A stretch of 22,083 bases of DNA from a virus: positions 1 through 22,083 of the IMG/VR virus record IMGVR_UViG_3300033145_001105; one strand, given 5' to 3'. The position numbers were made by a program, and so were the translations under genes. Positions 1,785 to 20,298 of this stretch are shown one piece after another. Each line of letters begins with the position of its first letter. The stretch's first letter is position 1. The notes beneath the pieces are model-generated. The model searched no databases and was not told the origin of the DNA. It saw only the letters and a list, made by a program, of their open reading frames with translations.

Positions 1785-2270
1785 GTGAAGATCGAGCAAT
1801 GGGATATCGACAAGGTCAAGCCATACGAGAAGAACCCACGCCGCAACGATAAGGCCGTCGAGGCCGTGGCGAACTCCATTCGAGAGTTCGGCTTCCGCCA
1901 GCCCATCGTGGTCGATGAGCACGGCGTCATTGTCGTCGGGCACACGCGGCACAAGGCGGCTCTGAAGCTGGGCCTCAAGACCGTACCCGTCCACGTCGCC
2001 GCGGACCTCACGCCCCAGCAGGCGCGGGCGTACCGCCTGGCCGACAACCGCTCGGCTGCTGATTCCGAGTGGGACGTTGATCTTCTGCCCATCGAACTGG
2101 GCGAGCTTCGCGACGATGGCTTCGACCTGAAGCTGGTGGGCTTTTCCGACAAGGAGCTTGCCGAGTACCTCCGCGAGTTCGACACCGACCTCGACGGCGG
2201 TGCCGAAGCCGACGAAGCCGTCGAAACCGTCCGCTGCCCCAAGTGCGGCCACGAGTTTCCCCTGGAGTGA
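1785..2270 (+). CDS. ParB/Srx-fold (ParB-like nuclease domain) protein with C-terminal zinc knuckle
   Basis: Residues 1-100 carry the ParB N-terminal pattern: KVKPYEKNPRRND, then NSIREFGFRQPIVVDE, then GVIVVGHTRHKAALKLG (the G-H-T-R-H box, about residues 52-56), which binds and hydrolyses a nucleotide in this superfamily. The following LTPQQARAYRLADNRS...WDVDLLPIELGEL and GFSDKELAEY stretch is the arrangement known from phage ParB-methyltransferase fusions, but here no methylase follows. Instead the protein ends in CPKCGHEF, a lone zinc knuckle. The start is taken as GTG 1785 because AAGGGAG lies 7 bases upstream; an ATG at 1764 is in frame but has no such site. There is no ParA nearby, so plasmid-type partition is unlikely; DNA nicking, nucleotide kinase-like or regulatory roles are possible. 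Fold confident, function open. Confidence 0.85.
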   Translation: MKIEQWDIDKVKPYEKNPRRNDKAVEAVANSIREFGFRQPIVVDEHGVIVVGHTRHKAALKLGLKTVPVHVAADLTPQQARAYRLADNRSAADSEWDVDLLPIELGELRDDGFDLKLVGFSDKELAEYLREFDTDLDGGAEADEAVETVRCPKCGHEFPLE

Positions 2271-2275
2271 ATGCC

Positions 2276-3697
2276 ATGAGCGTACAAGTTGCCGTCTACG
2301 TTCAAAGCAAGTACGCCAAGCCCGCCTACACGGTGGAGAGCTACAACGTCCGCGCCTGGCCGGGGTTAGAACTGGTCTGTCACGCCTTGCGGCAAGCAGG
2401 GATCGAGGTGGACTACTGCTCGTCCGCCACGGCCGGCCGGTACAAGATCGTGCTGGTGTCGATCACGTCGGGTTGCGACTGGTATCCGTTCGTCGCCGAG
2501 CGGTTACGCTGGCCGAAGTCGGCCCGGCCGACCGTCATTGCCGGCGGCGCGGGCCTGCTGAACGTCCGGCCGCTGCTGCGATGGTGCGATGTCTTCTGCC
2601 TGGGCCGGGCGGAAAGCCACGTCGTGCCGCTGGTCCGCGCAGCGCTGGCCGGCGAGAAGTACGAGCACCCGTCGGTGATCTACGGGGCCGATTTCGACAT
2701 GAACCGGACATACTGCATCGACGCCGGCGAGAAGCTCTACCCGCATCCGGTGCCCCTGGCCAACGGCAAGATCTGGCGGGAAACCGCCTACGGCTGCCAG
2801 CGCAAGTGCCTGTTCTGCGCCTACACCTGGCACCGCCGGCACGTCGGCGGGATGCAGAACGAGGCCGGCGCGGGCGACGTACTTTGGGGCGGCTCGGCCG
2901 AGAAGACCATCTTCGAGCTTGACCTTGCCCGGCCGGAGACGTGGGGCCTGCCGAAGCTGCGGATCGTCGGGCTGGACGGCTTCTCCGAGCGGCTTCGGCG
3001 AATGGTCAACAAGCCCATCACGCGCGACATGCTCCGCGGCTTTTTCCGCGGCATGGCGGCGGCGAAGGTCAAGCCGAACCACATGAAGGTCTACAACATC
3101 GTCGGCTATCCGACGGAGACCGAGGCCGACTGGTTCGAGTTCCTCGAAGACCTTGCCGCGGCGGACGAAGGCTGGACCAAGATCGATCCGCAATGGGGTA
3201 TTGAGGTCCATTCGACGCCGTTTCGCCCCATGCCAGCCACGCCCGCCGCCTGCTGGCCGATGAGCCCGGTCAATTACCGCGGCCGAATCGCCAAGATGCT
3301 CGCCCAGGGCAAGCATCGGGAATACAAGAGCATCTTCTACCGCGGCAACCGCTTCTGGGCGGCCGAGTCGCGCGGGACCGAGAGTCTGCCGACGGTCATT
3401 CTCGACGCGCTGGTCCTTCGCGGCGTCGAGGACGACTCCGAGACAATCGCCCGGCTGGCCAGCTCAAAGAAGTTCCGCAACGCGAGCATGGCCCACAAGA
3501 CCGCCATTCTGGAGCGGTACGTCGATATCGCCCGGCTCTTTGGCGGCTACACGTGGGAGACGCTCCCGACGCGGTACCTGGCCTCGTATACACCGAACCA
3601 GAAGCTCCAGAACATCGACGCCGTGGCACGCAAGCGAGCCGGCGCGCCCTGGCCAGAGGAACAAGGCGCCACCGTAACCGCACTTGACCGTACTTGA
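2276..3697 (+). CDS. Radical SAM enzyme with B12-binding-like N-terminal domain
   Basis: The protein has 473 residues. Cysteines 174, 178 and 181 in YGCQRKCLFCAY form the CX3CX2C motif that holds the 4Fe-4S cluster for radical SAM chemistry. Residues 1-165 look like the Rossmann-type B12-binding domain that precedes many radical SAM domains (GLELVCHALRQAGIEVDY, IVLVSIT, TVIAGGAG, FCLGRAES), but I do not see the DxHxxG cobalamin motif. Downstream VYNIVGYPTETEADWFEF is the usual strand and helix late in the barrel. The substrate cannot be read from the sequence. The start is ATG 2276, with GGAG 8 bases upstream; the ParB-like gene ends 5 bases earlier, so the two are probably co-translated. Its site between a ParB-fold gene and the terminase suggests a phage-specific modification, of DNA or of a structural protein. 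Confidence 0.85.
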   Translation: MSVQVAVYVQSKYAKPAYTVESYNVRAWPGLELVCHALRQAGIEVDYCSSATAGRYKIVLVSITSGCDWYPFVAERLRWPKSARPTVIAGGAGLLNVRPLLRWCDVFCLGRAESHVVPLVRAALAGEKYEHPSVIYGADFDMNRTYCIDAGEKLYPHPVPLANGKIWRETAYGCQRKCLFCAYTWHRRHVGGMQNEAGAGDVLWGGSAEKTIFELDLARPETWGLPKLRIVGLDGFSERLRRMVNKPITRDMLRGFFRGMAAAKVKPNHMKVYNIVGYPTETEADWFEFLEDLAAADEGWTKIDPQWGIEVHSTPFRPMPATPAACWPMSPVNYRGRIAKMLAQGKHREYKSIFYRGNRFWAAESRGTESLPTVILDALVLRGVEDDSETIARLASSKKFRNASMAHKTAILERYVDIARLFGGYTWETLPTRYLASYTPNQKLQNIDAVARKRAGAPWPEEQGATVTALDRT

Positions 3698-6806: not shown

Positions 6807-8276
6807 ATGGGACTGTGGCCGTGGACAAGACGGAAGAAGGTCAAGGCAGCCGGGCAACTGCTGCTCGTGCGGGCGAAGTTCGACGCCGCGCAGACCACGC
6901 CCGACAACCGCAAGCACTGGGCCAACGCCGACCACCTCTCGGCCGACGTCGCAGCTTCGCCTGAAGTCCGGCGAACGCTCCGCAACCGCGCCCGCTACGA
7001 AGTGGCGAACAATTCCTACGCCCGCGGGATCGTCCTCACGCTGGCCAACGATGTCATCGGCACCGGCCCGCGGCTCCAGATGCTCACCGACTCGGCCGAG
7101 GCCAACCGCACCATCGAGGCCGAGTTCGGACGCTGGGCCAAGGCCGTCGGCCTATCCGAGAAGCTCCGCACCATGCGGCAGGCGCGAGCGCAGGACGGCG
7201 AAGCATTTGCCCTGCTGGTCAGCAACGCCCGCCACGACTCGGCGGTCAAGCTGGACGTGCGGCTGATCGAAGCCGACCAGGTGACCACGCCCGATCTTTC
7301 GTTCGCCAAGGGCAACGCGGTCGATGGGATCGTGCTGGACGAGTTCGGCAACCCGAAAGAGTACCACGTGCTCAAGCAACACCCCGGCGGCGACGCGGCA
7401 TCGGCCGGCACGCAGTACGACCGTATCCCTGCCAGCAGCATGATCCACTGGTTCCGCGCCGACCGGCCGGGGCAGAACCGCGGCCTGCCGGACATCCTGC
7501 CGGCGTTGCCCCTCTTTGCCCAGCTTCGACGGTACACGCTGGCGGTTATCGCCGCGGCAGAGAGCGCCGCGAACATTGCCGTGCTGATGAAGACCAACGC
7601 GCCCGCCGGCGGCGAAGCGGCCGAGGTCGAACCCATGACCGAGATGGAGTTCGCCCCGAACATGGCCGTCTTCACGCCGGAAGGCTGGGAGCCTTCGCAG
7701 GTCAGGGCTGAGCAGCCGGCGACGACCTACGACATGTTCAAGCGGGAAATCCTCAACGAGATCGCCCGCTGCCTGAACATGCCGTACAACATCGCGGCCT
7801 GCAACTCGTCAGGCTACAACTACTCGTCGGGGCGGCTGGACCATCAGACCTACTACAAGTCCATCCGGGTCGAACAGGCCCATATCGAGGCGGTCGTTCT
7901 GGACCGCATCTTCTCCGCGTGGCTGGCCGAGGCCGTGAAGGTGTTTGACATCGGCATCGACGACATAGGCGACGCGCCCCATCAATGGTTCTGGGACGGC
8001 CACGAGCATGTGGACCCGCAGAAGGAAGCCGCGGCGCAGGCCCAGCGGCTCGCCAGCCACACGACCACGCTGGCCACCGAGTACGCCCGCCAGGGCAAGG
8101 ACTGGGAAACCGAACTGCGCCAGCGGGCCAAGGAAGCGCAACTCTGCAAGGAACTCGGCCTTTCGTCCGCGCAGGCCGCCCCGCAGGCGCCCGCCGAAAG
8201 CGACAAGGGCGACGCCAACACTGAAGACCTGCCTGACCGGCAGGCGGACAAGGAGGACAACCGTGCCGCTGCCTGA
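6807..8276 (+). CDS. Portal protein, lambda gpB family
   Basis: This 489-residue protein forms the dodecameric ring at the head vertex through which DNA is packaged and ejected. Diagnostic stretches are the N-terminal VRRTLRNRARYEVANNSYARGIVLTLANDVIGTGPRLQ, the DGEAFALL strand, the IHWFRADRPGQNRGLPDILPALPLFAQLRRYTLAVIAAAESAANIAV core and the LNEIARCLNMPYNIAAxNSSGYNYSSGRLDHQTYYK segment, all standard for lambda-type portals. The last 50 residues are a charged Ala-rich tail. The 3' end overlaps the start of the protease-capsid gene by 14 bases, and a strong AAGGAGG within it serves that gene. Confidence 0.93.
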   Translation: MGLWPWTRRKKVKAAGQLLLVRAKFDAAQTTPDNRKHWANADHLSADVAASPEVRRTLRNRARYEVANNSYARGIVLTLANDVIGTGPRLQMLTDSAEANRTIEAEFGRWAKAVGLSEKLRTMRQARAQDGEAFALLVSNARHDSAVKLDVRLIEADQVTTPDLSFAKGNAVDGIVLDEFGNPKEYHVLKQHPGGDAASAGTQYDRIPASSMIHWFRADRPGQNRGLPDILPALPLFAQLRRYTLAVIAAAESAANIAVLMKTNAPAGGEAAEVEPMTEMEFAPNMAVFTPEGWEPSQVRAEQPATTYDMFKREILNEIARCLNMPYNIAACNSSGYNYSSGRLDHQTYYKSIRVEQAHIEAVVLDRIFSAWLAEAVKVFDIGIDDIGDAPHQWFWDGHEHVDPQKEAAAQAQRLASHTTTLATEYARQGKDWETELRQRAKEAQLCKELGLSSAQAAPQAPAESDKGDANTEDLPDRQADKEDNRAAA

Positions 8277-10350
8277 ACGAAACCAAGGTGAGACCCGAGA
8301 GCAGTTCATCGACCGCTGCATGGCGGACGAGACGATGGTTCGCGAGTTCCCCGATGCCGCCCAACGCCGGGCCGTGTGTGAGGAGCAGACCCGCGCACAG
8401 GCGGGAGCGACGCTTCAACTGCTCAGCGACCCCGGCGCGCTGTCGATCGAGGCCGCGGCCGACCTCGCGGCGGCTGACGACGACGGCAAGCCGAAGCTGC
8501 CGCGTTTCTCGATGGTCGCCTACACTGGCGGGGCCATGCGAATCGCCGGCTGGCGCTACCCGGTCGTCGTGGACCTGGCCGGCCTGGTCATTCCGTCGCA
8601 GTCGCGGCCGATCCGGTTTGGCCACGATGCCGCTGCCGGCGTGGGGCACACGTACCGGCTCGCCGTTGAGGAGGGCAAGCTCGTCGCGGCCGGCGTCGTC
8701 TCGCGGGACACGCCCGCGGCGAGGGAGATCGTCGCATCCGCCCGCAACGGCTTTCCCTGGCAGGCGTCGCTCGGGGCGTCGGTGGAGCAGTTCGAGTTCG
8801 TGCGTGAGAACCAGACCGTTCTGGTGAACGGCCGGGAGTTCAAGGGGCCCGTCAACGTCGTCCGTAAGGCGACGCTGGGCGAAATCTCATTCGTCGATCT
8901 AGCGGCCGACGGCAACAGCTCCGCGAGCGTAGCCGCGTCGGCCAAGGAGCAAGCAACTATGGAAGACAAAGAAGTCAAGCAGGATCAGGCCCAGATCGAG
9001 GCCGCGGCCCAGACGGACGGGGCCGACAAGGACACCTCGCCGGCGGTCGCCGATCCGGTGCCGGACATCCGCGCCGCCGCGGTCGAGGAAACGAAGCGCA
9101 TCGAGTCCATCCGCAAGGTGTGCGCCGGCCGGCACGCCGACATCGAGGCCAAGGCCATCGAGGAAGGCTGGGACGCCAGCCGCACCGAGCTTGAAGTGCT
9201 CCGTGCCGAACGGCCGAAGGCTCCGCCATCGCACATCCGCGACAACGCGGTCGATTCCGACGTGCTCGCCGCGGCGGTGTGCCTTACCGGCGGACTGAAG
9301 ATGATCGAGTCGTCCTTCGACGAGAAGGTCCTCGATACGGCAAGCCGGCGGTTCCGCCGGGGCATCGGCCTCCAGGAACTCATCATGGAAGGCGCCTGGG
9401 CCAACGGCTACCAGGGCCGAACCTTCCGCTCCGACATGGAAGGCGCGCTCCAGGCGGCGTTCAGCACGTTCCGCCTGCCGGGCATCCTGTCGAACGTGGC
9501 CAACAAGTTCCTCCTGGCCGGCTTCGAGTCGGTGGAAGACACCTGGAAGCGGATCGCCGCCACGCGGAGCGTCCGCGACTTCAAGGCGGTCACCAGCTAC
9601 CGGCTCACCGGCGCGTTCGAGTACGAGGAAGTCGGCCCGACTGGCGAACTGAAGCACGGCGCGGTCGATGAGGAAACCTTCACCAACCAGGCGAAGACCT
9701 ACGGGCGGATGTTCTCCATCACCCGCACCGACCTCATCAACGACGACCTCGGCGCGCTGACGGCCGTGCCGCGAAAGATCGGCCGAGGCGGCGCTCTGAA
9801 GCTCAACAAGGTCTTCTGGACCGCCTTCCTCGACAACGCCGCCTTCTTCACCGCCGCCCGCGGCAACTACAAGGCCGGCACGACGACGGCCCTGTCCGTG
9901 GACGGCCTGACCGACGCCGAACTGCTCTTCCTGGAGCAGAAGGACGCCGAAGGCAGCCCGCTGGGCGTCGTCGCCAGGGTGCTGCTGGTACCGCCGGCCC
10001 TGCTGGTCAAGGGCACGCAGTTAATGAACTCGACGGAGCTGCGAGACGGCGGCGCATCGAGCAAGTACGTCACGAACAACCCGCACGCCGGCAAGTTCAG
10101 CGTCATCCACTCGGCGTACCTGAGCAACGCGACCATCGAGGGCAACTCAGCGAAGGCGTGGTATCTGCTGGCCGACCCCGACGACCTGCCGGTCATCGAA
10201 GTGGCCTTCCTCAACGGCCAGCAGACCCCGACGGTGGAGCGGGCGGACGCGGACTTCAACGTTCTCGGCATCCAGTTCCGCGGGTATTTCGACTTCGGCG
10301 TCGCCCTCCAGGACTGGCGGGCCGGCGTGAAGATGAAGGGCGAGGCGTAA
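8263..10350 (+). CDS. Fused prohead protease - scaffold - major capsid protein
   Basis: The gene encodes 695 residues from GTG 8263, chosen because AAGGAGG lies 7 bases upstream. Residues 1-50 carry the REQFIDRCMADETMVREFPDAAQRRAVC segment often found before phage proteases. Residues 65-230 are an HK97-type (U35) prohead protease: His121 in IRFGHD and Ser169 in FPWQASLGASV are the likely catalytic residues. Residues 233-345 are acidic, Ala- and Gln-rich and helical, as expected for scaffold. Residues 347-695 are a Mu gpT-like HK97-fold capsid protein (VFWTAFLDNAAFF, LLVPPALL, LMNSTELRD, NPHAGKFSVIHSAYLSN, AWYLLADPDDLPVIEVAFLNGQ, GVALQDWRAGVKMKGEA). In most phages these are two or three genes. 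An internal start at 8959 probably yields scaffold-capsid without protease. Confidence 0.92.
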   Translation: MPLPERNQGETREQFIDRCMADETMVREFPDAAQRRAVCEEQTRAQAGATLQLLSDPGALSIEAAADLAAADDDGKPKLPRFSMVAYTGGAMRIAGWRYPVVVDLAGLVIPSQSRPIRFGHDAAAGVGHTYRLAVEEGKLVAAGVVSRDTPAAREIVASARNGFPWQASLGASVEQFEFVRENQTVLVNGREFKGPVNVVRKATLGEISFVDLAADGNSSASVAASAKEQATMEDKEVKQDQAQIEAAAQTDGADKDTSPAVADPVPDIRAAAVEETKRIESIRKVCAGRHADIEAKAIEEGWDASRTELEVLRAERPKAPPSHIRDNAVDSDVLAAAVCLTGGLKMIESSFDEKVLDTASRRFRRGIGLQELIMEGAWANGYQGRTFRSDMEGALQAAFSTFRLPGILSNVANKFLLAGFESVEDTWKRIAATRSVRDFKAVTSYRLTGAFEYEEVGPTGELKHGAVDEETFTNQAKTYGRMFSITRTDLINDDLGALTAVPRKIGRGGALKLNKVFWTAFLDNAAFFTAARGNYKAGTTTALSVDGLTDAELLFLEQKDAEGSPLGVVARVLLVPPALLVKGTQLMNSTELRDGGASSKYVTNNPHAGKFSVIHSAYLSNATIEGNSAKAWYLLADPDDLPVIEVAFLNGQQTPTVERADADFNVLGIQFRGYFDFGVALQDWRAGVKMKGEA
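8944..8961 (+). promoter_or_regulatory. Internal ribosome-binding site and ATG inside the protease-capsid gene
   Basis: AAGGAG (8944-8949) is followed after 9 bases by an in-frame ATG (8959-8961), exactly where the protease domain ends and the scaffold-like region begins. Initiation here would give a 463-residue scaffold-capsid protein. This mirrors the nested lambda C/Nu3 arrangement and would solve the stoichiometry problem of a 1:1 protease-capsid fusion. Confidence 0.55.
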
Positions 10351-10387
10351 GGGGCAGCCCGCCGCCATGAAACGCGGCGGGGACCCC
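10351..10387. other. Strong intergenic hairpin after the capsid gene
   Basis: CCCGCCGC (10358-10365) and GCGGCGGG (10374-10381) pair perfectly around an 8-base loop CATGAAAC. GGGG (10351-10354) can extend the stem with CCCC (10384-10387). No T-run follows, so mRNA processing, stabilisation or partial attenuation is more likely than full termination. Confidence 0.6.
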
Positions 10388-10415
10388 AGCCTCCAAACGA
10401 CAGGAGCAAATCGAC

Positions 10416-10751
10416 ATGGCAACGTTCGTACACGACGGCAAGAGCATCGACTTTCGCGCAAGCTCGGACGTGACCGCCGGCGACGTGGTGGTCCAGGGCG
10501 AACTTCTCGGCGTGGCCAAGGTGGACATTCCGGCCGGCCGGCTTGGGGCACTGGCGGTCGTCGGCGTCTTCGACTTCCCCAAGGCCACCGGAGCCGGCAC
10601 GGGCATCGCGGCCGGCGCGAACTGCTATTGGGACGTGGCCGACGGCGAGGCGAAGACCGACGCGGAAGGCGGGGCCAACAAGCTCATCGGCAAGTGCGTC
10701 CGCGCCGCAGCCGACGCCGACGCGACGGTCCGCATCCGCATGAGTCAGTGA
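10416..10751 (+). CDS. DUF2190-type capsid-associated protein
   Basis: The protein has 111 residues and is almost all beta. It has the DUF2190 layout: an N-terminal strand pair, VTAGDVVVQGELLGVAKVDIPAGRLGALAVVGVFDFPK, then GTGIAAGANCYWDVADGEAKTDAEGGANKLIGKCVRAA, ending in VRIRM. Members lie directly after the major capsid gene in many siphoviruses and are thought to be capsid decoration or cement proteins. ATG 10416 has GGAG 10 bases upstream (10402-10405). A strong hairpin separates it from the capsid gene. Confidence 0.85.
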   Translation: MATFVHDGKSIDFRASSDVTAGDVVVQGELLGVAKVDIPAGRLGALAVVGVFDFPKATGAGTGIAAGANCYWDVADGEAKTDAEGGANKLIGKCVRAAADADATVRIRMSQ

Positions 10752-10761
10752 GGTGTCCGCC

Positions 10762-11145
10762 GTGGCCGATATGCTCGAATCCGCTGTGGACTGGCTGGGC
10801 GACATGCGCAACCGGCACCTCTCGCGGGCGGTGACCTACACCCGCGGCGCGGAGTCGGTCGAGTTGTCGGCCACTTTAGGCGACACCCGGTATGAACTCA
10901 GTGACGAGGCCGGCGCGACGGTGCAGGCCAAGGCAACGGACTTCATCGTCGCGGCGGACGAACTGGTGCTCGGCGGCGAGGTGACGAAGCCCCAGGTCGG
11001 GGATCGGATTCGACTGCCCGCCGGGGCGAAGGTGCTGGTGTTCGAGGTTCTCGACCTGGCCGGGGCCGGCCACTGGCGGCCGGCTGACCCGTTCGGCAAG
11101 GCCCTGCGGATTCACGCCAAGCAGATCGACGAGGAAACGCCATGA
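10762..11145 (+). CDS. Head-tail attachment/head completion protein (lambda FII-like position)
   Basis: The protein has 127 residues. It opens with a helix (MLESAVDWLGDMRNRHLSRAVTYTRG) and continues as a beta-rich domain, VELSATLGDTRYELSDEAG, DFIVAADELVLGG, PQVGDRIRLPAGAKVLVFEVLDLAG, HWRPADPFGKALRIHAKQI. This pattern is shared by phage head-tail joining proteins that plug the portal ring and dock the tail. I chose GTG 10762 because GAGGTG ends 6 bases before it; GTG 10753 or ATG 10771 are alternatives. It lies right after the DUF2190 gene and ends in an ATGA overlap with the next gene. Family assignment is moderately sure. Confidence 0.75.
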   Translation: MADMLESAVDWLGDMRNRHLSRAVTYTRGAESVELSATLGDTRYELSDEAGATVQAKATDFIVAADELVLGGEVTKPQVGDRIRLPAGAKVLVFEVLDLAGAGHWRPADPFGKALRIHAKQIDEETP

Positions 11146-11378
11146 GCGTCTGCAACGAGCAATACGACCGTGTGTGCAAAAGCGAGTTCGCATCGATCCA
11201 CGTGAAGCTCGACCGGCTCGACGAGGCGATTCGCGGCAACGGCCGGCCGGGCATTCAGCTTCGCCTGGACCGCCTGGAAGCAGCCGAAGCGGTGTGGTCG
11301 AGGCTCATGTGGATCATCGCCGGCTCGACGGTGACGCTGGCGCTCGGCGCGGTGTGGACGCTGATCTTTGGAGCATAA
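11142..11378 (+). CDS. Small membrane protein, XhlA-like (coiled coil plus C-terminal TM)
   Basis: The protein has 78 residues. Residues 14-48 are a charged helix with a heptad-like pattern (IHVKLDRLDEAI...IQLRLDRLEAAE), and residues 52-77 form one hydrophobic segment (LMWIIAGSTVTLALGAVWTLIFG). This layout matches XhlA-type hemolysin/holin-associated phage proteins that help permeabilise the membrane. Here it sits among head-tail joining genes, an unusual place for a lysis gene, and starts in an ATGA overlap. It may instead tether something to the membrane. No endolysin is adjacent. Confidence 0.7.
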   Translation: MSVCNEQYDRVCKSEFASIHVKLDRLDEAIRGNGRPGIQLRLDRLEAAEAVWSRLMWIIAGSTVTLALGAVWTLIFGA

Positions 11379-11382
11379 CGGC

Positions 11383-11745
11383 ATGGCCAAACGCTGGATC
11401 AACTCGATGGACGTGGAGGTAAGCCCAAGCGGCGCGCCTCTGTTCGATATCGCCGGCTGCACCTCGCTTGCAGGCGGGACGAAGACCGTCCCTTCGGCCA
11501 GCACGCCCCAGCCGCTCGTGGCCGCGTCCACGCCGTGCCGGTTCGTGTGGGTCGGCGCTCGCGTGGACAGCTACGGCAACCCGCAGAACACCCGGCCGTG
11601 CTTCGTGGGCGATTCGGCGAACCAGAACATCCCGATCCTGCCCAGCAACTACGAGGGCGTCGTCATCCGCATCGACGACGCGAACAAGCTCTACGTCAAG
11701 GTCGGCATCAACGGCCAAGGCGTGGTCTATCGAATCTTCGCGTGA
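11383..11745 (+). CDS. Small phage structural protein, function unknown
   Basis: The protein has 120 residues from ATG 11383, with GGAG 9 bases upstream. It is beta-rich: VEVSPSG, CRFVWVGARVDSYGNPQNTRPCFVGDSANQNIPILPSNYEGVVIRIDDANKLYVKVGINGQGVVYRIFA. The C-terminal half, which ends in 'kvginGqGVvYrif', resembles short conserved proteins found in head-neck or tail modules of siphoviruses, but I cannot name a family. It lies directly before the Tyr-rich solenoid gene and is probably co-translated with it, with a stop 7 bases before that gene's GTG. Confidence 0.75.
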   Translation: MAKRWINSMDVEVSPSGAPLFDIAGCTSLAGGTKTVPSASTPQPLVAASTPCRFVWVGARVDSYGNPQNTRPCFVGDSANQNIPILPSNYEGVVIRIDDANKLYVKVGINGQGVVYRIFA

Positions 11746-11752
11746 GGTAGCC

Positions 11753-12766
11753 GTGGCCACAATCACCAGCGCACAAACCGGCATCTGGTCCGATCCGGCA
11801 ACGTGGGTTGGCGGTGTTGTGCCGGACATGACCGTGGACGATGCAATCATCGCCAGCGGCCATGCCGTGGTGATTCTCCCCTCGGACTACATCGTGCTTG
11901 TGGACGGTCACATGCTGGATGTGGAGAACGGGGCGCAGCTCATCGTTGTGGGCGGCGTGGAGGTCTACTACTACGGCTCGCTGTACGTGGAAGGGGAACT
12001 GGACATCATTTCCGGTGCATACGTGGCCGTGTACGACGACGGTGATGCGGACATCAACAGCGGCGCGATCGCATCCGTCGAGGGCTACTTCGACTTCTAC
12101 TACTACGCCTACCTGAACGTCTACGGCGAAGTGACCGTCGAGACGGACGGCTATCTCTCGGCCGATTACGACGGCTACATCTACATCTACGGCGGGATGG
12201 TCTCGGTCTACGGCGAACTCGACTTGTACGAGTACGGGTACATGGACCTGGACGGCGGCTACCTCGGCGTCGAAAGCGGCGGCGAAGTGTTCATCGCCGG
12301 CTACGTCAACTGCTACTACTCCAGCACCATTTCCGTCTACGGCGAACTGACGCTCGATTCCTACGGCTACATCGAGGCTGTCTCCTCCTCGGAAATCTCG
12401 TGCGAGTCGTCCGCGCTGGTCGCGGTGGGCGGATACCTGCTGGTCGCCGACGACGGCTCGTGCCGCGTTTACGGGCCGATGGAGATTGCGCGGTCGGCCG
12501 GCTTCGACGCCTGGTACTACGGCTACCTCGAAGTCAACAACGGCGGCCTCATCGAGGACTTCGGCTACCTCTACATTCACTACGACGCCTTCCTCTACGT
12601 GGGCGGTGAAGTCCGCGTCTACCGGGACATCTACATCTCCGGCCAGATGTACGGCGGCGGCAAGATCGTGATGTTCCGCCGCGACGGGCAGATCAAGGAC
12701 GGCGACGGCAACAGTCTCTTCAAGCTGGACCAAGCCTACGGGCATGGTTTGCAGCGGATCGCATAG
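11753..12766 (+). CDS. Tyrosine-rich beta-solenoid protein with G8-like N-terminus
   Basis: The protein has 337 residues from GTG 11753 (GAGGT 4 bases upstream). Residues 2-38 (ITSAQTGIWSDPATWVGGVVPDMTVDDAIIASGHAVVI) look like the G8-type start found on secreted beta-helix proteins. Residues 50-315 are an almost unbroken series of short strands and turns such as GSLYVEGELDI, AYLNVYGEVTV, GYIYIYGGMVSVYGELDLYEYGYMDLDGGYLGV and FLYVGGEVRVYRDIYI. It holds about 40 tyrosines, many acidic residues and very few Lys or Arg until the basic C-terminus (residues 311-337). This strongly suggests a right-handed beta-helix with stacked Tyr ladders. Such folds serve as phage adhesins, depolymerases or decoration proteins. 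I see no catalytic signature. It sits between head-tail joining and tail-terminator genes, not with tail-tip genes. Fold likely, function unknown. Confidence 0.85.
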   Translation: MATITSAQTGIWSDPATWVGGVVPDMTVDDAIIASGHAVVILPSDYIVLVDGHMLDVENGAQLIVVGGVEVYYYGSLYVEGELDIISGAYVAVYDDGDADINSGAIASVEGYFDFYYYAYLNVYGEVTVETDGYLSADYDGYIYIYGGMVSVYGELDLYEYGYMDLDGGYLGVESGGEVFIAGYVNCYYSSTISVYGELTLDSYGYIEAVSSSEISCESSALVAVGGYLLVADDGSCRVYGPMEIARSAGFDAWYYGYLEVNNGGLIEDFGYLYIHYDAFLYVGGEVRVYRDIYISGQMYGGGKIVMFRRDGQIKDGDGNSLFKLDQAYGHGLQRIA

Positions 12767-12777
12767 GAGAACCGGCT

Positions 12778-13155
12778 ATGGCTGAGCAACCCATGGGCGC
12801 ACAGGGCAACAAGACAATGGAACTGACCCCGGCCGAGCAACAGGCGGTGGAGCGGATGCGCATGACGCCTGCCGAGCGCGCCGCCGAGCAGCAGGCCCGC
12901 AAGCAAGCGCGGCTCGACGCGATGACGCCGGAGGTCCGGCAGGTCATCGAGGACCGCAACGCCCGCGTCGATGCGATGGACCCGGCGCAGCGCCGGGCGT
13001 TCCTCGCCGGCCGGCGTCTGGCTGGCGCGGCCCGGTCGCTCAAGCTCGAAGTCCAGAAGGGCCTGTCCTTCGACGAAGCGATGGCGTCGCTCGAACTGGC
13101 GGAAGCCGAAGCGGTGGACTGGCTCCGCGGGAAGCTCGCCGAGACAGGAGCGTAA
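12778..13155 (+). CDS. Alpha-helical charged protein, function unknown
   Basis: The protein has 125 residues and is rich in Ala, Arg, Glu and Gln. It is predicted to be almost wholly helical, with loosely repeating units: LTPAEQQAVERMRMTPAERAAEQQARKQARLDAMTPEVRQVIEDRNARVDAMDPAQRRAFLAG. The recurring (M/L)(T/D)P-x-x-(Q/R/E) helix caps suggest three or four short helices of similar build. AGGAG precedes the ATG by 9 bases. It could be a tail assembly or scaffold-like helper, or a partner of the beta-solenoid protein it follows after 11 bases. I do not recognise a family. Confidence 0.75.
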   Translation: MAEQPMGAQGNKTMELTPAEQQAVERMRMTPAERAAEQQARKQARLDAMTPEVRQVIEDRNARVDAMDPAQRRAFLAGRRLAGAARSLKLEVQKGLSFDEAMASLELAEAEAVDWLRGKLAETGA

Positions 13156-13163
13156 CGGAACTC

Positions 13164-13589
13164 ATGGCACTGATCGCAGATATCGCCGACGCCGTTGTCG
13201 CCGAGCTTAACGCCGGCTTGTTCAGCGTGCCCTTCACGGCCGAGCGGCTGTATCGCCCGGACTTCGAGCTTCCGGAGATGAAGGACCTGCGCGTGTCGGT
13301 CGTGCCGCACGGCCTGGAAATGACCACGGCCGGCCGGAGCCTGAGCCAGCACGACGTGCAGATCGACCTGGCCGTGCAGAAGAAACTTGACGCCGCCGAC
13401 AACGCGGAGATCGACGCGCTGATGGGCTTGGTCGAGGAACTCGCCGAGTTCCTCCGCACGAAGCGGCAGTTCGGCGACGCGGTGTGGGTGAGAACGGATA
13501 ACTCGCCCGTCTACTCGCAGGAGCACCTCGGCGAGCTTCGGCAGTTCACGAGCGTCCTGACGGCGACGTTGCGGGTGGTGAAGACATGA
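13164..13589 (+). CDS. Candidate tail terminator/tail completion protein
   Basis: The protein has 141 residues of mixed alpha/beta. It starts with a helix (IADIADAVVAELNAGLF), then LYRPDFELPEMKDLRVSVVPHGLEMTTAGRSLSQHDVQIDLAVQKKLD, a second helix (IDALMGLVEELAEFLRT) and a final strand region with TSVLTATLRVVKT. This order, helix then beta-sheet then helix then strand, is that of gpU/tail-terminator proteins, which cap the tail tube before it joins the head. Position, just before the gp10-like and major tail genes, agrees. The next gene begins in an ATGA overlap. Existence is certain; the function is inferred. Confidence 0.8.
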   Translation: MALIADIADAVVAELNAGLFSVPFTAERLYRPDFELPEMKDLRVSVVPHGLEMTTAGRSLSQHDVQIDLAVQKKLDAADNAEIDALMGLVEELAEFLRTKRQFGDAVWVRTDNSPVYSQEHLGELRQFTSVLTATLRVVKT

Positions 13590-14026
13590 TCGGCATGGTG
13601 ACCAGGCAGATGTTCTTCGACCGCGGCGCGGTGACTTCCGCCACCGACCGGGCAACGCGGCGCGTGCTCAGCCGTATCGGCGCGTACGTCCGCACGACCG
13701 CGAAGCACAGCATCCGCAAGCGCAAGCGGATCAGCGACCCCGGCGAGCCGCCGAGCAGTCACACGGGATTGCTGCGACGGTTCATCTTCTTTGGCTATGA
13801 CCGCGGCCGTCGGAGCGTAGTGATCGGCCCGATGCGGCTGAATCAGAAGGTCGGCGACGCGCCGGCGGCGTTGGAGTACGGCGGGACATCCACTGTGGTC
13901 GAAGGGCTTCGCCGCCGGCGGCGAAAGCGACGCATTCGGATTGCGGCCCGCCCCTATATGGGGCCGGCCTTCGAGCAGGAGAAACCCAAGCTGCCCGCCA
14001 TGTGGAGAGGCTCCATCACGCGATGA
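13586..14026 (+). CDS. HK97 gp10-like head-tail/minor tail component
   Basis: The protein has 146 residues and is very basic. A central GEPPSSHTGLLRRFIFFGYD, then VVIGPMRLN, APAALEYGG, and finally a RIAARPYMGPAFEQEKPKLPAMWRGSI C-terminus follow the pattern of HK97-gp10/virion morphogenesis proteins ('P..htG.Lr..i', 'alEyGt', 'aRPfm.PAl....'). These lie in the neck region between head and tail. An RRRRRKRR stretch near residues 110-118 is unusual and may contact DNA. The gene starts in an ATGA overlap, and a long hairpin spans its stop codon. Confidence 0.8.
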   Translation: MIGMVTRQMFFDRGAVTSATDRATRRVLSRIGAYVRTTAKHSIRKRKRISDPGEPPSSHTGLLRRFIFFGYDRGRRSVVIGPMRLNQKVGDAPAALEYGGTSTVVEGLRRRRRKRRIRIAARPYMGPAFEQEKPKLPAMWRGSITR

Positions 14027-14077: not shown

Positions 14078-14515
14078 ATGGCAACCTATGTACTCGGAAT
14101 GAACGCGGGCCTGTACCAGGGCACCGCCGGCGAAACCGATCCAACCTTGATGACCGAGGTGGATAACGTCCGCGACGTGACGCTCTCGCTGGAGGCCGGC
14201 GAAGCGGACATCACCACGCGTGGCAACTCCGGCTGGCGGGCCACGGCTCCGACGCTCCGCGAGTGCACCGTCGAGTTCCAGATGGTCTGGAAGCCCGGCG
14301 ATGCGGTCTTCGAGGCAATCAAGGCGGCGTTCCTCACCGCCGGCACCGTCGCCCTGGCGGTGCTCGACCAGAAGCGGACCATCTCCGGCGCGCAAGGGCC
14401 GCTCGGCGACTTCTCGATCACCAACTTCAGCCGCTCCGAAGCGCTGGAGGAGGCTATCGTCGCCGATGTGACGGCCAAGCTCGCCCGGTTCGAGGAATGG
14501 CACGAGGTGGTGTAA
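14078..14515 (+). CDS. Major tail (tube) protein
   Basis: The protein has 145 residues and is beta-rich. It matches the small tube-protein layout: an N-terminal YVLGMNAGLYQG, a helix-strand segment LMTEVDNVRDVTLSLEAGEADITTRGNSGWRATAPTLRECTVEFQMVW, then DAVFEAIKAAFLTAG, and a final GDFSITNFSRSEALEEAIVADVTAKLA strand pair. The phrase 'V.dvtl.ls..eaDvTtR.n.GWra...tLke..ve' is typical of tail-tube proteins of siphoviruses. AGGGAG precedes the ATG. The two genes after it are the tail chaperones, which is the canonical order. Confidence 0.88.
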   Translation: MATYVLGMNAGLYQGTAGETDPTLMTEVDNVRDVTLSLEAGEADITTRGNSGWRATAPTLRECTVEFQMVWKPGDAVFEAIKAAFLTAGTVALAVLDQKRTISGAQGPLGDFSITNFSRSEALEEAIVADVTAKLARFEEWHEVV

Positions 14516-15216: not shown

Positions 15217-15600
15217 ATGGACGCAAGCGGAATCATCGAGGCGGTGGGCAAGTTCCTCAACTCCGGCTTCGGCTTCGCCCTGGTGTGGGCTGGGCTCGTC
15301 GGCGTGTTCCTGTGGCTTGCCAGCCGCTATAACCCCTTCCAGGAGGCGTGGAAGAAGTACGAGGGCAGCATCATCACGGGCATCAAGCTGGCCGAGAAGC
15401 AGATTCCCGACGACACGCCCAACGCCGGCCTGGCCAAGCTCGACGCAGCCCTGCGGTTCGTCCTGAAGGCCTACGCCGAGGCCAACAACGGCAAGCAGCC
15501 GTCGGCCAAGGAAATCGAGCAGATCCGCCAGGGCATCCAGATCAAGCACGCCGACCTCGACCGCTTCGGCGGTCTGTCGAAGTCGAAAGAGGCCGCATAG
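15217..15600 (+). CDS. Holin-like membrane protein, single TM
   Basis: The protein has 127 residues. The N-terminal 15 residues are followed by a hydrophobic helix (residues 18-36, GFALVWAGLVGVFLWLASR), then a long charged amphipathic region (YEGSIITGIKLAEKQIPDDTPNAGLAKLDAALRFVLKAYAEANNGKQPSAKEIEQIRQGIQIKHADLDRFGG). One N-terminal TM plus a helical cytoplasmic tail with an 'lAEkqi.....aKldaal.yvlk' pattern recalls LLH-type phage holins. Two further membrane genes follow with overlapping ends. A membrane-anchored tail assembly role is the alternative, given its place between chaperone and tape measure. Confidence 0.7.
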   Translation: MDASGIIEAVGKFLNSGFGFALVWAGLVGVFLWLASRYNPFQEAWKKYEGSIITGIKLAEKQIPDDTPNAGLAKLDAALRFVLKAYAEANNGKQPSAKEIEQIRQGIQIKHADLDRFGGLSKSKEAA

Positions 15601-15755
15601 TGAAGTGGCTCGTCGCGCTCATCACGGCCGTGCTCCAGGCGCTTCTGCCATGGCTCGCCAAGAAGTCGAAGCCCACGGCCGAGGATGCCGACCCGGCGCG
15701 TGAAGACCGCGACAAGCTGCGGAAGAAGGTCCGCGAGCACTGGAGCAAGCCATGA
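15600..15755 (+). CDS. Small membrane protein, possible lysis accessory
   Basis: The protein has 51 residues from a GTG that shares its first base with the upstream TAG (TAGTG). Residues 2-22 are hydrophobic (KWLVALITAVLQALLPWLAKK), and the rest is a charged helix (DADPAREDRDKLRKKVREHWSKP). An AAAGAGG lies 7 bases before the GTG. It could be an inner-membrane spanin-like or antiholin-like subunit paired with the lipoprotein that follows in an ATGA overlap, but it is shorter than known i-spanins. Evidence is its tight coupling on both sides. Confidence 0.65.
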   Translation: MKWLVALITAVLQALLPWLAKKSKPTAEDADPAREDRDKLRKKVREHWSKP

Positions 15756-15973
15756 ATCTGCTGAAGCGACTGATCTGGTTCCTGCTTCCCATCCTGCTGC
15801 TGGCCGGCTGTGCGGTGCGGACGATCTACGTGCCGCACGGCACGCCCGTCCGCCTGCGCGAGACGGTCGAGAACGTGAAGGTCTGGGTCAAGGACGCCGA
15901 CGGCCAGACGGTCGCCGGCCGGATGGACCTGCCCGAGGGGTGGTATGCCTTACCCATGCCCGAGGAGGAGTAG
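15752..15973 (+). CDS. Small phage lipoprotein, possible outer-membrane spanin
   Basis: The protein has 73 residues. A short signal peptide (MNLLKRLIWFLLPILLLAGC) has a clear lipobox with Cys20. The mature 54 residues read VRTIYVPHGTPVRLRETVENVKVWVKDADGQTVAGRMDLPEGWYALP, a compact beta-strand pattern I have the impression is common in phage genomes near holin genes. Position after two small membrane proteins suits an o-spanin-like or other lysis lipoprotein, but classical Rz1 proteins are proline-rich and this one is not. It starts in an ATGA overlap. A GGAGGAG within its 3' end serves as the ribosome-binding site of the tape measure gene. Confidence 0.8.
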   Translation: MNLLKRLIWFLLPILLLAGCAVRTIYVPHGTPVRLRETVENVKVWVKDADGQTVAGRMDLPEGWYALPMPEEE

Positions 15974-17995: not shown

Positions 17996-18814
17996 ATGCC
18001 TACGCTGACAGAGAAGATCGACAGCCGCGAATGGACCACCGGCGACAGGCCGGCGGTCACGCTGCACTATTCTTTAGCCGGCGTCGCCGACGATCTCACG
18101 GTCAAGGCCCTGCTCACAAGCTCCACCGCCTCCAGCTATGACGGCCTGGAGCGCGAGAGCATCCAGTTCGAGCCTGTCTGGGTCGATACCGCCGCCAACG
18201 ACGGCCTGTGGGATTGTCGCGTCCGCTACGTCGCGCCGGAGCAAAAGGAGCCGGAGGTCGGGGAGTCGAGCTTCAGCTTCGACACGGGCGGCGGCACCCA
18301 GCACATCACGCAGTCCATTACCACGGTGAACCACTACGCCGCACCGGGCAAGACCGCACCCGACTTCGGCGGCGCGATCGGCGTCACGCATGACAACGTC
18401 GAGGGCGTCGATATCACCGTGCCTGTCTACGCCTTCTCGGAAACCCACTACCTGGCCGACTCGTTCGTCACGCTGGCTTATCGCGGCACGCTGTTCAATC
18501 TGACCGGCAAGGTGAACAACGCCTCGTTCAAGGGCCTGGCCGCGGGCGAGTGCCTATTCCTCGGCGCGTCCGGCTCGAAGCGCGGCGCGGACGACTGGGA
18601 GATCACCTTCCGCTTCGCCGGTTCGCCCAATCGCAGCGGCCTGACCGTCGGCCCCATTACCGGCATCTCGAAGAAGGGCTGGGAATACATGTGGGTGCGC
18701 TACGCCGACACGGAGGACGCCGCCGCCAAGGCCATCGTCAAGAAGCCCGTCGCCGTCTACATCGAGCGAGTCTACGACGAAGGCAACTTCGCTTCGCTGG
18801 GGATCGGGACCTGA
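17996..18814 (+). CDS. Distal tail protein candidate, unrecognised family
   Basis: The protein has 272 residues and is beta-rich. AAGGA precedes the ATG by 5 bases. Two halves can be seen: residues 1-110, a beta-sandwich-like part with SREWTTGDRPAVTLHYSLAGVADDLTVKALL, and residues 115-272 with GVDITVPVYAFSETHYLADSFVTLAYRGTLFNLTGKVNNASFKGLAAGECLFLGASGSKRGADDWEITFRFAGSPNR. The second half recalls tail-tube/distal-tail beta-barrels ('G.vn...f.g..age.lflGasg...g.d.weitF.F..spn') that close the tail end. Position right after the tape measure fits Dit. No motif proves it. Confidence 0.8.
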   Translation: MPTLTEKIDSREWTTGDRPAVTLHYSLAGVADDLTVKALLTSSTASSYDGLERESIQFEPVWVDTAANDGLWDCRVRYVAPEQKEPEVGESSFSFDTGGGTQHITQSITTVNHYAAPGKTAPDFGGAIGVTHDNVEGVDITVPVYAFSETHYLADSFVTLAYRGTLFNLTGKVNNASFKGLAAGECLFLGASGSKRGADDWEITFRFAGSPNRSGLTVGPITGISKKGWEYMWVRYADTEDAAAKAIVKKPVAVYIERVYDEGNFASLGIGT

Positions 18815-18817
18815 GCC

Positions 18818-19651
18818 ATGGGCGACGCGATGAAAAAGGTCAAGCCGGGCGATCCGCTGGCCATCCCGGCCGCGACGTTCAACACCTTCGTGGACGCCGC
18901 TCGCGATTACCTTCAGCGTCGCCACGGCCAAGGCCAGCAGGCCACGCCCACCGGCCGGCACAACTGCATCGTCCCCGTCCGCAACGACAGCGGAGCCGAC
19001 CGCGAGCGATACGAGGTCCTCGGCATCGACTCGCCCGTCTTCGACCCGTCCAGCGACGAAGAGGCATTCAAGAACACCCCGGCGCTGTCCGGCGTCACGC
19101 CGGCGAAAGATGACCATACCGGCAAGTTCGCCGTCCTTCTGGAGCCTATTGCCGCCGGCGAAATCGCCCTGGCCGTCGCCGCGGGCGCGGTGCCCGTCCG
19201 CGTGAACGTGCCGGACGAGGACTACCCCTACCGCTTGGCCGAGGTGACGGACGGATCGGCCGCGAACCTCACCGCGGTCAAGGTCGGCTCGGCCGCGATT
19301 CTCTGGCGCGAAGGCGGCACCGGCGTCCAGTGGGCGCTGGTGCGGCTGGGTATCCTGCCCGAGCCGTCGGTGTTCCCGGTGGACCTCGCGCAGTACGGCG
19401 GCGACCAGGGCGACGATCAGAACCCGGCTACGTGGACCTACGACGTGACCGACCCGGTAAGCGGCGAGACGCTGGCCAGCGGCGTCGATCCCGTTGCCAC
19501 GCCGCACAAGTGGCAGCGACCATCGGTGGGCTTCATCATCCCGGCCACTTTCGGCTACGCCCACTGGGACGCCGAAGGCGAGCTTGTGCTCGGCTGGATC
19601 AACGAGGTCGCGGACCAGGAGCCGTGCGAGACCTCGGAGTCCCAGACGTAG
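18818..19651 (+). CDS. Tail-tip structural protein, unrecognised family
   Basis: The protein has 277 residues. The N-terminal segment KVKPGDPLAIPAATFNTFVDAARDYLQRRHG is a helix. A long beta-rich region follows (NCIVPVRNDSGADRERYEVLGIDSPVF, GKFAVLLEPIAAGEIALAVAAGAVPVRVNV, NLTAVKVGSAAILWREGGTGVQWALVRLG), and the last 60 residues (ATWTYDVTDPVSGETLASGVDPVATPHKWQRPSVGFIIPATFGYAHWDAEGELVLGWINE) look like a second small beta domain. Such 'PGdpl.ip..tfN.fvda' openings are shared by phage tail proteins of unknown role. A second ATG at 18830 is possible as the start. The call as virion protein rests on position. Confidence 0.75.
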   Translation: MGDAMKKVKPGDPLAIPAATFNTFVDAARDYLQRRHGQGQQATPTGRHNCIVPVRNDSGADRERYEVLGIDSPVFDPSSDEEAFKNTPALSGVTPAKDDHTGKFAVLLEPIAAGEIALAVAAGAVPVRVNVPDEDYPYRLAEVTDGSAANLTAVKVGSAAILWREGGTGVQWALVRLGILPEPSVFPVDLAQYGGDQGDDQNPATWTYDVTDPVSGETLASGVDPVATPHKWQRPSVGFIIPATFGYAHWDAEGELVLGWINEVADQEPCETSESQT

Positions 19652-19662
19652 GAGGGCCGGGC

Positions 19663-20298
19663 ATGTCTACAACGGGCAAGGCAGTAGCTATCGCCAGCGG
19701 CAAGCGGGGCGTCCTCGCTTCGGGCAAGGCTGCGGTCTACAACGCCGACGGCCAGTGCGCTGCCTGCTGTATCGAGTTCCTCCAGACCTGGAGCTTCACC
19801 GACGTGGGCTTCATCGACGGTGGGCAAAATGGGGCCTCCCGCGCCTACGACGACCCGGCCGACGTGCCGGCCAGCCCGTGGACCATTCTGAACGACGGTC
19901 GAAGCCTGCGACTGGATTGGGAAGACGACAACAACTGCATGAACCACAACCCCAACACGCAATCGGCAACGGCGACCTGCGAGATCATCGTGCCGCGCGA
20001 CACCCTCATGACCGTTGCGTGGTCGGGGATGGGCGAGACGCAGGACCCCAACTACGAACTGATGAGCCTGTACGTCAACGGCCTGCTTGTCGGCTCGGCC
20101 CACGCCCCCGGCGGCAAGCTCGGCTGCGCCGGCGGCATGGCCCCGGTCGTCTCCAACCCGCCGCCACCCCAGCAGGTGCTTCTGACGACCGGCCCGCACA
20201 CGCTGTTCATCGACGCGACCACGAACGACCCGCTCTATCACTTCGGGGCGTGGTATCGGTTCGACCTGACCTTCGAGGAAGTGCCGCCCGCACCGTGA
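19663..20298 (+). CDS. Predicted tail fibre/receptor-binding-type beta-sandwich protein
   Basis: The protein has 211 residues; the start ATG 19663 follows AGGAGG closely. Residues 1-35 hold short repeats (KAVAIASGKRGVLASGKAAVYNADGQCAACC) including a Cys-x2-CC group. Residues 40-211 read like a lectin or carbohydrate-binding beta-sandwich: WTILNDGRSLRLDWEDDNNC, CEIIVPRDTLMTVAWSGMGETQDPNYELMSLYVNGLLVGSAHAPGG, QQVLLTTGPHTLFIDATTNDPLYHFGAWYRFDLTFEE. This is the last virion gene before the lysogeny end, a usual place for host-binding proteins. Function is inferred from fold pattern and place, with no family match I can name. Confidence 0.75.
   Translation: MSTTGKAVAIASGKRGVLASGKAAVYNADGQCAACCIEFLQTWSFTDVGFIDGGQNGASRAYDDPADVPASPWTILNDGRSLRLDWEDDNNCMNHNPNTQSATATCEIIVPRDTLMTVAWSGMGETQDPNYELMSLYVNGLLVGSAHAPGGKLGCAGGMAPVVSNPPPPQQVLLTTGPHTLFIDATTNDPLYHFGAWYRFDLTFEEVPPAP

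Follow-up and report, generated by a model that had tools for sequence, protein, structure and literature searches.

What a tyrosine-rich, solenoid-like protein might do in the neck region of a phage, encoded between head-joining and tail-terminator genes, is the question raised by the gene at positions 11753–12766 (+ strand) of the stretch of DNA analysed here (IMG/VR virus record, 22,083 bases; hereafter the window). The results described below favour, with a probability of ∼0.57, a role as an optional appendage at the neck of a siphovirus-like phage whose host is probably a member of Planctomycetota.

The gene starts with GTG and specifies 337 residues, in agreement with the coordinates, strand and frame proposed in the first-pass annotation. 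Close relatives were present in seven other IMG/VR records, five of them full length and 67–93% identical to the window protein. Since dN/dS against the close homologs was 0.17–0.36, the frame is, judged by sequence comparison, a real gene under purifying selection; in all five full-length pairs the solenoid body had changed faster than the C-terminal end. An antisense frame of 345 residues (11708–12745, − strand) is open across nearly the whole gene; it was set aside as a gene, as conservation tracks the + frame, and is probably a by-product of the Tyr-rich codon composition. The protein contains 42 Tyr residues (about 40 had been counted earlier), 40 of them within residues 61–300. Its body is acidic, as previously annotated, and free of Lys, with neither Lys nor Arg ahead of residue 238 and no Lys before residue 304. 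The C-terminal tail, earlier called basic, is only mildly so, because residues 301–337 contain three Lys and three Arg against four Asp and no Glu. The periodic pattern that had been noted was recovered as repeat signals above those of residue shuffles, both for Gly (autocorrelation at lags 7, 14, 21, 29 and 36; z 3.2–4.5) and small hydrophobic residues (lags 6, 8, 14 and 22; z 3.5–4.8), and for Tyr (lag 22; z 3.0). No signal peptide was evident at the N-terminus. The window protein did not significantly match any sequence family in Pfam or PHROG or any PDB sequence, and no enzyme was matched in Pfam or PHROG; a profile search of genome contigs with the alignment of close homologs found nothing.

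When the 337-residue protein was modelled as a monomer with AlphaFold2 (seven sequences), a parallel β-helix was obtained with a mean pLDDT of 88.6, values being ∼94–99 for residues 31–240 and mostly 46–68 in the C-terminal tail. The strand spacing corresponds to three strands and ∼22 residues per turn; as predicted, residues ∼31–300 form a rigid parallel β-helix of about 12 turns, in which inward positions are hydrophobic with a single exception among 58, as expected of this fold. The solenoid proposed from the sequence was thus borne out by confident structure prediction. Alignment of 29 model strands gave the repeat G-x-[LIV]-x-[VI]; Tyr occupied none of the 87 Gly or inward positions and 11 of the 29 first outward ones. 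By the model register, Tyr 120, 142, 163, 184, 206 and 228 lie on successive turns along one face, forming a six-rung ladder (12110–12436, + strand). As a longest run, this ladder had p 0.001 against body shuffles and p 0.017 with strand positions kept, and five of its six residues were invariant among seven close homologs. Only this single ladder is claimed, because the excess of total stacked Tyr pairs was not significant with strand positions kept (p 0.26). The stacked Tyr-ladder solenoid of the first-pass annotation therefore stands in that one six-rung ladder is real, but not as a defining property, since homologs encoded in the same place have only 2.5–7.5% Tyr. The nearest solved folds by VIA-align were the autotransporter adhesins pertactin (Z 22.6), UpaB, TibA and Ag43 (Z 21.2), with Foldseek concurring on Ag43 and TibA. 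After these ranked 8egr_A (Z 19.4), a protein from the upper tail of phage Andhra, then alginate epimerases and tailspikes (the latter at Z about 17); enzyme and tailspike neighbours included the AlgG epimerase (Z 18.8), a PL6 lyase (Z 17.4) and the HK620 tailspike (Z 17.1). A BFVD match annotated 'neck appendage protein' had an E value of 5e-4.

Divergent homologs, recruited through searches with neighbouring genes, showed 32–41% identity and kept the N-terminal cap and the C-terminal tail while ranging from 229 to 375 residues in length and from 2.5 to 14.5% in Tyr content. Because the ends are kept while length and Tyr vary, it is the solenoid and not Tyr that defines the family; Tyr richness is, in the sequences compared, a property of some lineages. 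The cap (residues 1–58; 11753–11926, + strand) is conserved, with S6, Q8, G10, W12, T17, W18, P24, D29, D30 and H37 invariant across 23 homologs. The earlier description of this end as G8-like held in part: weak Pfam G8 matches were found in 11 of the 23 homologs, but none in the window protein at E ≤ 0.1. The best homolog match (E 4.8e-4, 20.5 bits) lay under the curated cut-off of 22.9 bits for G8 (PF10162), a value reached by neither the window protein nor any homolog. The tail (residues 301–337; 12653–12763, + strand; outline GGGKIVMFRRDGQIKDGDGNSLFKLDQAYGHGLQRIA) is well conserved, is modelled with low confidence and is proposed as a docking element. Between these ends the body varies in both length and sequence. 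A comparison with the DNA of relative L004 is instructive: the flanks are ∼95% identical, whereas identity falls to ∼70% over 11743–12460, which covers the N-cap and most of the body, the C-terminal end being nearly identical again. At the sequence level, such a profile is what a fixed base carrying a swapped or rapidly diversifying outer portion would show.

The placement of the gene in a neck operon, between head-joining and tail-terminator-position genes, was confirmed. The gene order runs terminase, portal, capsid/protease, decoration, head–tail joining, small putative membrane protein, adaptor, solenoid, charged 125-residue protein, terminator-position gene, neck1 and major tail, the features from decoration to major tail all lying on the + strand. 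The head decoration (cement) protein (10416–10751) matched Pfam Phage_cement_2 (E 1.4e-23) and PHROG head decoration (E 6.2e-22), and the head–tail joining protein (10753–11145), the upstream border of a variable site, matched Pfam Phage_H_T_join_3 (E 2e-35). There follows a possible small membrane protein of 78 residues (11142–11378), with a charged N-terminal half and a hydrophobic C-terminal stretch, which is kept in many relatives whether or not the cassette described below is present, and which had no confident Pfam or PHROG family match. The adaptor (11383–11745; 120 residues) is the first cassette gene; an alignment of 19 adaptors placed its start at ATG 11383 rather than TTG 11368. The solenoid gene is the second, and the third (12778–13155), recognized by synteny, encodes a charged, probably helical protein of 125 residues, again lacking a confident Pfam or PHROG match. 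The downstream border is the tail-terminator-position gene (13164–13589), named by position as it had no confident family match; it is followed by a Neck1/tail completion protein (13586–14026; PHROG phrog_5, E 2.1e-5) and the major tail (tube) protein (14078–14515; PHROG major tail, E 7.3e-11; Pfam Phage_tail_2, E 3.3e-6). Putative distal tail genes (17996–20298) lie after the tape measure gene.

Other parts of the window also deserve mention. Between the ParB-like and terminase genes lies a radical SAM-like protein (2243–3697, with 1764–2270 beside it, both + strand; Pfam Radical_SAM E 4.1e-6, under the cut-off). The protease and major capsid protein appear to be fused (8008–10350, + strand; PHROG 'major head and protease protein', E 5.1e-84), and the true start is probably far inside this frame, beyond the portal overlap. 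Two further genes lie between those for tail assembly and the tape measure; one product has a hydrophobic segment at its N-terminus (15217–15600, + strand) and the other is small and lipoprotein-like (15752–15973, + strand), and the two could be lysis (holin/spanin-like) genes within the structural module.

The distribution of the three cassette genes was followed in 60 loci bearing both the joining protein and the downstream border (the window and its own copy included). The complete trio was present in 21, the adaptor only in 2 and none of the three in 37; accordingly, all 21 solenoid loci with both borders had the adaptor, and all 21 had the 125-residue charged protein, which occurred in none of the other 39. 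The orthologs in neck operons of related phages that had been suggested as a check were thus found. In a census of the 58 loci in which both borders were seen (window excluded), 19 had the solenoid, 11 another insert at the same site and 13 an insert just past the terminator-position gene; 7 had no insert on either side of that gene, and 8 were not visible far enough. The solenoid gene therefore travels in a cassette with the adaptor and the 125-residue protein, and is absent or replaced elsewhere. Between the window and L003, the solenoid and adaptor shared 83% and 88%, respectively, against 47% for the capsid protein and 49% for the joining protein. Genes at the equivalent site in other relatives included some with weak β-helix/DUF5123 matches (L029, L160). 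The L023 gene at 8424–10499 (+ strand) encodes a 691-residue neck-site protein that matches type I dockerin (E 9.5e-5), slightly over the curated bit cut-off; L045 and L149 are relatives, and dockerins would not normally be expected on structural proteins of phages. In L065 the neck-site gene (12650–13396, + strand) encodes a Laminin_G_3 lectin fold (E 1.8e-14), and that of L070 (14951–15787, + strand) has weak leucine-rich-repeat matches; because the anchor peptide described below precedes neither, these two products may attach differently. In L008 and L009, one contig (1–2030) has fragments of the portal, capsid, solenoid and neck1 genes abutting one another, which probably reflects a chimeric assembly or a relic left by deletion.

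The first 13 residues of the adaptor, MAKRWINSMDVEV (11383–11421, + strand), are common to adaptors whose C-terminal domains are otherwise unrelated, four adaptor classes sharing this anchor peptide while differing in the remaining domains. When IMG/VR was searched with a degenerate DNA pattern for the 13 residues, the peptide was found in 59 contigs, in all 59 downstream of the head genes of this phage group and mostly ≤54 bases from the joining or small membrane protein gene. In L022, L025, L026 and L029 the anchor-bearing adaptor lies past the terminator-position gene, farther from the head genes. Class A1 adaptors were accompanied by partners with an RRE tail (...RRE..I.D..GN...; 28 by automated scoring, with L083 and L130 assigned on visual inspection), whereas the partners of class A2 adaptors (n = 10) end in ...GVG(T/R) or variants of it. 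Partners at anchor-bearing loci include the dockerin-bearing protein and the products with weak β-helix or DUF5123 matches. No A1/A2 crossing was seen among the scored pairs, several partners being unscorable and related cassettes not being independent. The structure model of the adaptor was poor (pLDDT 63) and gave no significant fold matches, so no adaptor fold is claimed.

The host is probably a member of Planctomycetota, because 9 of 11 relatives found in genome assemblies sit in Planctomycetota bins; the other two may be binning errors. Matches to the family profile were also found in 38 of 392 sampled Planctomycetota genomes, mostly covering its initial portion and in long open frames, and two planctomycete proteins retrieved in this way were clear G8 proteins (G8 E about 1e-14). 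The full solenoid form with its C-terminal tail was not found in the 392 genomes, and none of the window's gene set occurred as neighbours at the host-genome loci fetched. A host-gene origin was set aside and the matches were rejected as orthologs, these being mainly to the N-cap, inside large unrelated proteins and, at the loci fetched, without shared neighbours. Neither of the outcomes named in the first-pass annotation as contrary to it (a non-solenoid or disordered structure, or orthologs that are always host genes outside phage operons) was observed, since the solenoid is confidently predicted, orthologs lie in neck operons and host matches are mainly limited to the N-cap. Neither adaptor nor solenoid occurred in 50,697 phage records of an isolate collection, in which the best portal match was 28% identical; the phage group is one without a close isolate in the collection searched.

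These results suggest how the appendage might be built. Gene order points to attachment at the head–tail junction, where the near-invariant N-terminal peptide of the adaptor (MAKRWINSMDVEV) would plug into a fixed site, presumably on the connector; a fixed site is proposed because the peptide is constant while the attached parts change. The conserved C-terminal tail of the solenoid would fold onto the C-terminal domain of the adaptor, as the pairing of adaptor classes with tails suggests; since the adaptor model is poor, these docking steps draw on conservation and pairing. A tail docked in this way would leave the solenoid pointing outward with the G8-like N-cap at its distal end. Residues on the outer surface, among them the Tyr ladder in the sub-lineage of the window, could then bind host-surface polymers by stacking, most likely glycans, which would keep the virion at the cell surface until the tail tip engages. 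Tyr stacking cannot be a family-wide function, because homologs have as little as 2.5% Tyr; the ladder may serve in sugar stacking or as a dimer/oligomer face, as proposed for the ice nucleation protein (PMC3196904, PMC9418140). A more general scheme can be advanced tentatively, at somewhat less than even odds: a plug-in neck display in planctomycete phages, in which the 13-residue anchor fixes swappable adaptors at the head–tail junction and each adaptor class takes only arms with the matching tail, so that whole adhesins (Tyr-ladder and other solenoids, dockerin-bearing proteins) are exchanged with the rest of the virion unchanged.

Other positions on the virion were considered. The solenoid could stand on the head as a fibre or surface decoration, the adaptor being bound to the capsid or decoration protein rather than to the connector. 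The cassette does lie directly after the head decoration and head–tail joining genes; this reading is nonetheless unlikely given the four relatives in which the anchor-bearing adaptor is found beyond the terminator-position gene, and given that the precedent sharing this gene order is located at the neck (PMC4759559). That the product is a receptor-binding protein of the tail tip, its gene merely lying upstream of the tail genes, is improbable. β-helices are common in tailspikes, and gene and virion positions can differ, as in TP901-1, whose neck gene comes after the baseplate genes (PMC4493119); however, the putative distal tail genes persist in relatives whether or not these carry the solenoid, so the cassette is no replacement for them, and the anchor peptide occurs only beside head/neck genes in the 59 IMG/VR contigs.

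The nature of the protein was weighed in the same manner. An intertwined trimeric β-spike of the gp5/VgrG or adenovirus fibre shaft type, instead of a single-chain helix, could still act as an appendage, and the family profile had weak PDB matches to the gp5/VgrG spike (E 3e-4) and the adenovirus fibre (E 4e-4), G-x-h-x-h repeats being present in both. Those matches span part of the repeat and may reflect composition, however, and the high-confidence AlphaFold model is a single-chain coil of three strands per turn, which makes a trimeric spike very improbable. Only a slight probability attaches to a depolymerase cutting a polysaccharide of the host surface: although AlgG, the PL6 lyase and the HK620 tailspike are among the structural neighbours, adhesins are better matches, Pfam and PHROG returned no enzyme, residues 1–237 lack Lys and Arg, and it is the body that varies while the ends are kept. 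Finally, G8-type N-caps in secreted-looking planctomycete proteins might suggest a lysogenic-conversion gene acting at the host cell surface with no part in the virion, but the lack of an evident signal peptide, the tight packing of the gene among structural genes of the same strand and the absence of the full form with its C-terminal tail from the sampled Planctomycetota genomes render this a very faint prospect.

The preferred reading, that of an optional neck appendage, may be set against known systems. The Ag43 and TibA (self-associating autotransporter adhesins), UpaB and pertactin share with the window protein a parallel β-helix (VIA-align Z 20.5–22.6), but identity is 9–18%, and here the gene lies in a phage structural operon and the chain has no translocator domain: Pfam gave no translocator match in the 337 residues, and the 37-residue tail directly follows the solenoid. 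G8 proteins such as the CEMIP-like proteins of planctomycetes display the same N-cap pattern (W...TW.GG..P...D.V.I..GH.V), although only the first part of G8 aligns, with homologs below the curated cut-off and the window protein unmatched at E ≤ 0.1. An outward Tyr ladder is common to the β-solenoid of the ice nucleation protein, which has 16-residue repeats and water-organising TxT motifs, in contrast to the ∼22-residue turns and six-rung ladder seen here (PMC3196904, PMC9418140). The Andhra upper-tail protein and the BFVD neck appendage protein are alike in being β-helices, a likeness of fold only, with no sequence relation detected, and belong to other phage types.

A near counterpart in function and in gene order is the neck passage structure (NPS) of lactococcal siphophages of the 936 and P335 groups, present in 73 of 113 phages and seen by immunogold between capsid and tail (PMC6669499, PMC4759559). 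It is encoded by an optional gene, upstream of the major tail gene in the 936 group, and its attachment part is constant whereas its ends vary, some being a β-helix and others carbohydrate-binding modules (PMC6669499, PMC4759559); that of TP901-1 is dispensable and associates with the portal vertex (PMC4493119, PMC6669499). Similarly, the cassette described here, known from its genes, comes after the head genes and upstream of the major tail gene, and combines a constant attachment part with variable partners in only part of the relatives, seven having no insert at all. The NPS, however, is a single long chain that has a BppU-like domain at its N-terminus and in some phages a coiled coil, whereas here anchor and arm are separate proteins, a 13-residue peptide makes up the constant part and the hosts are apparently Planctomycetota; no sequence relation was found, and BppU was not listed among the matches when profiles of the solenoid and adaptor families were run against the PDB (the adaptor model having a pLDDT of 63). 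The earlier suggestion of an undescribed decoration was therefore too strong as regards its kind, lactococcal NPS having preceded it (PMC6669499, PMC4759559). The novelty lies in the adaptor and its anchor peptide, in the pairing of adaptors with tails and in the phage group itself, the adaptor–anchor system being the most original. If the proposal is right, a second phage group, apparently unrelated, also has neck adhesins, attached here through two components; a short constant peptide and a pairing rule are then directly testable, and the peptide would be a sequence marker for a variable neck site by which surface-binding modules can be found in uncultivated phages with unknown hosts or receptors.
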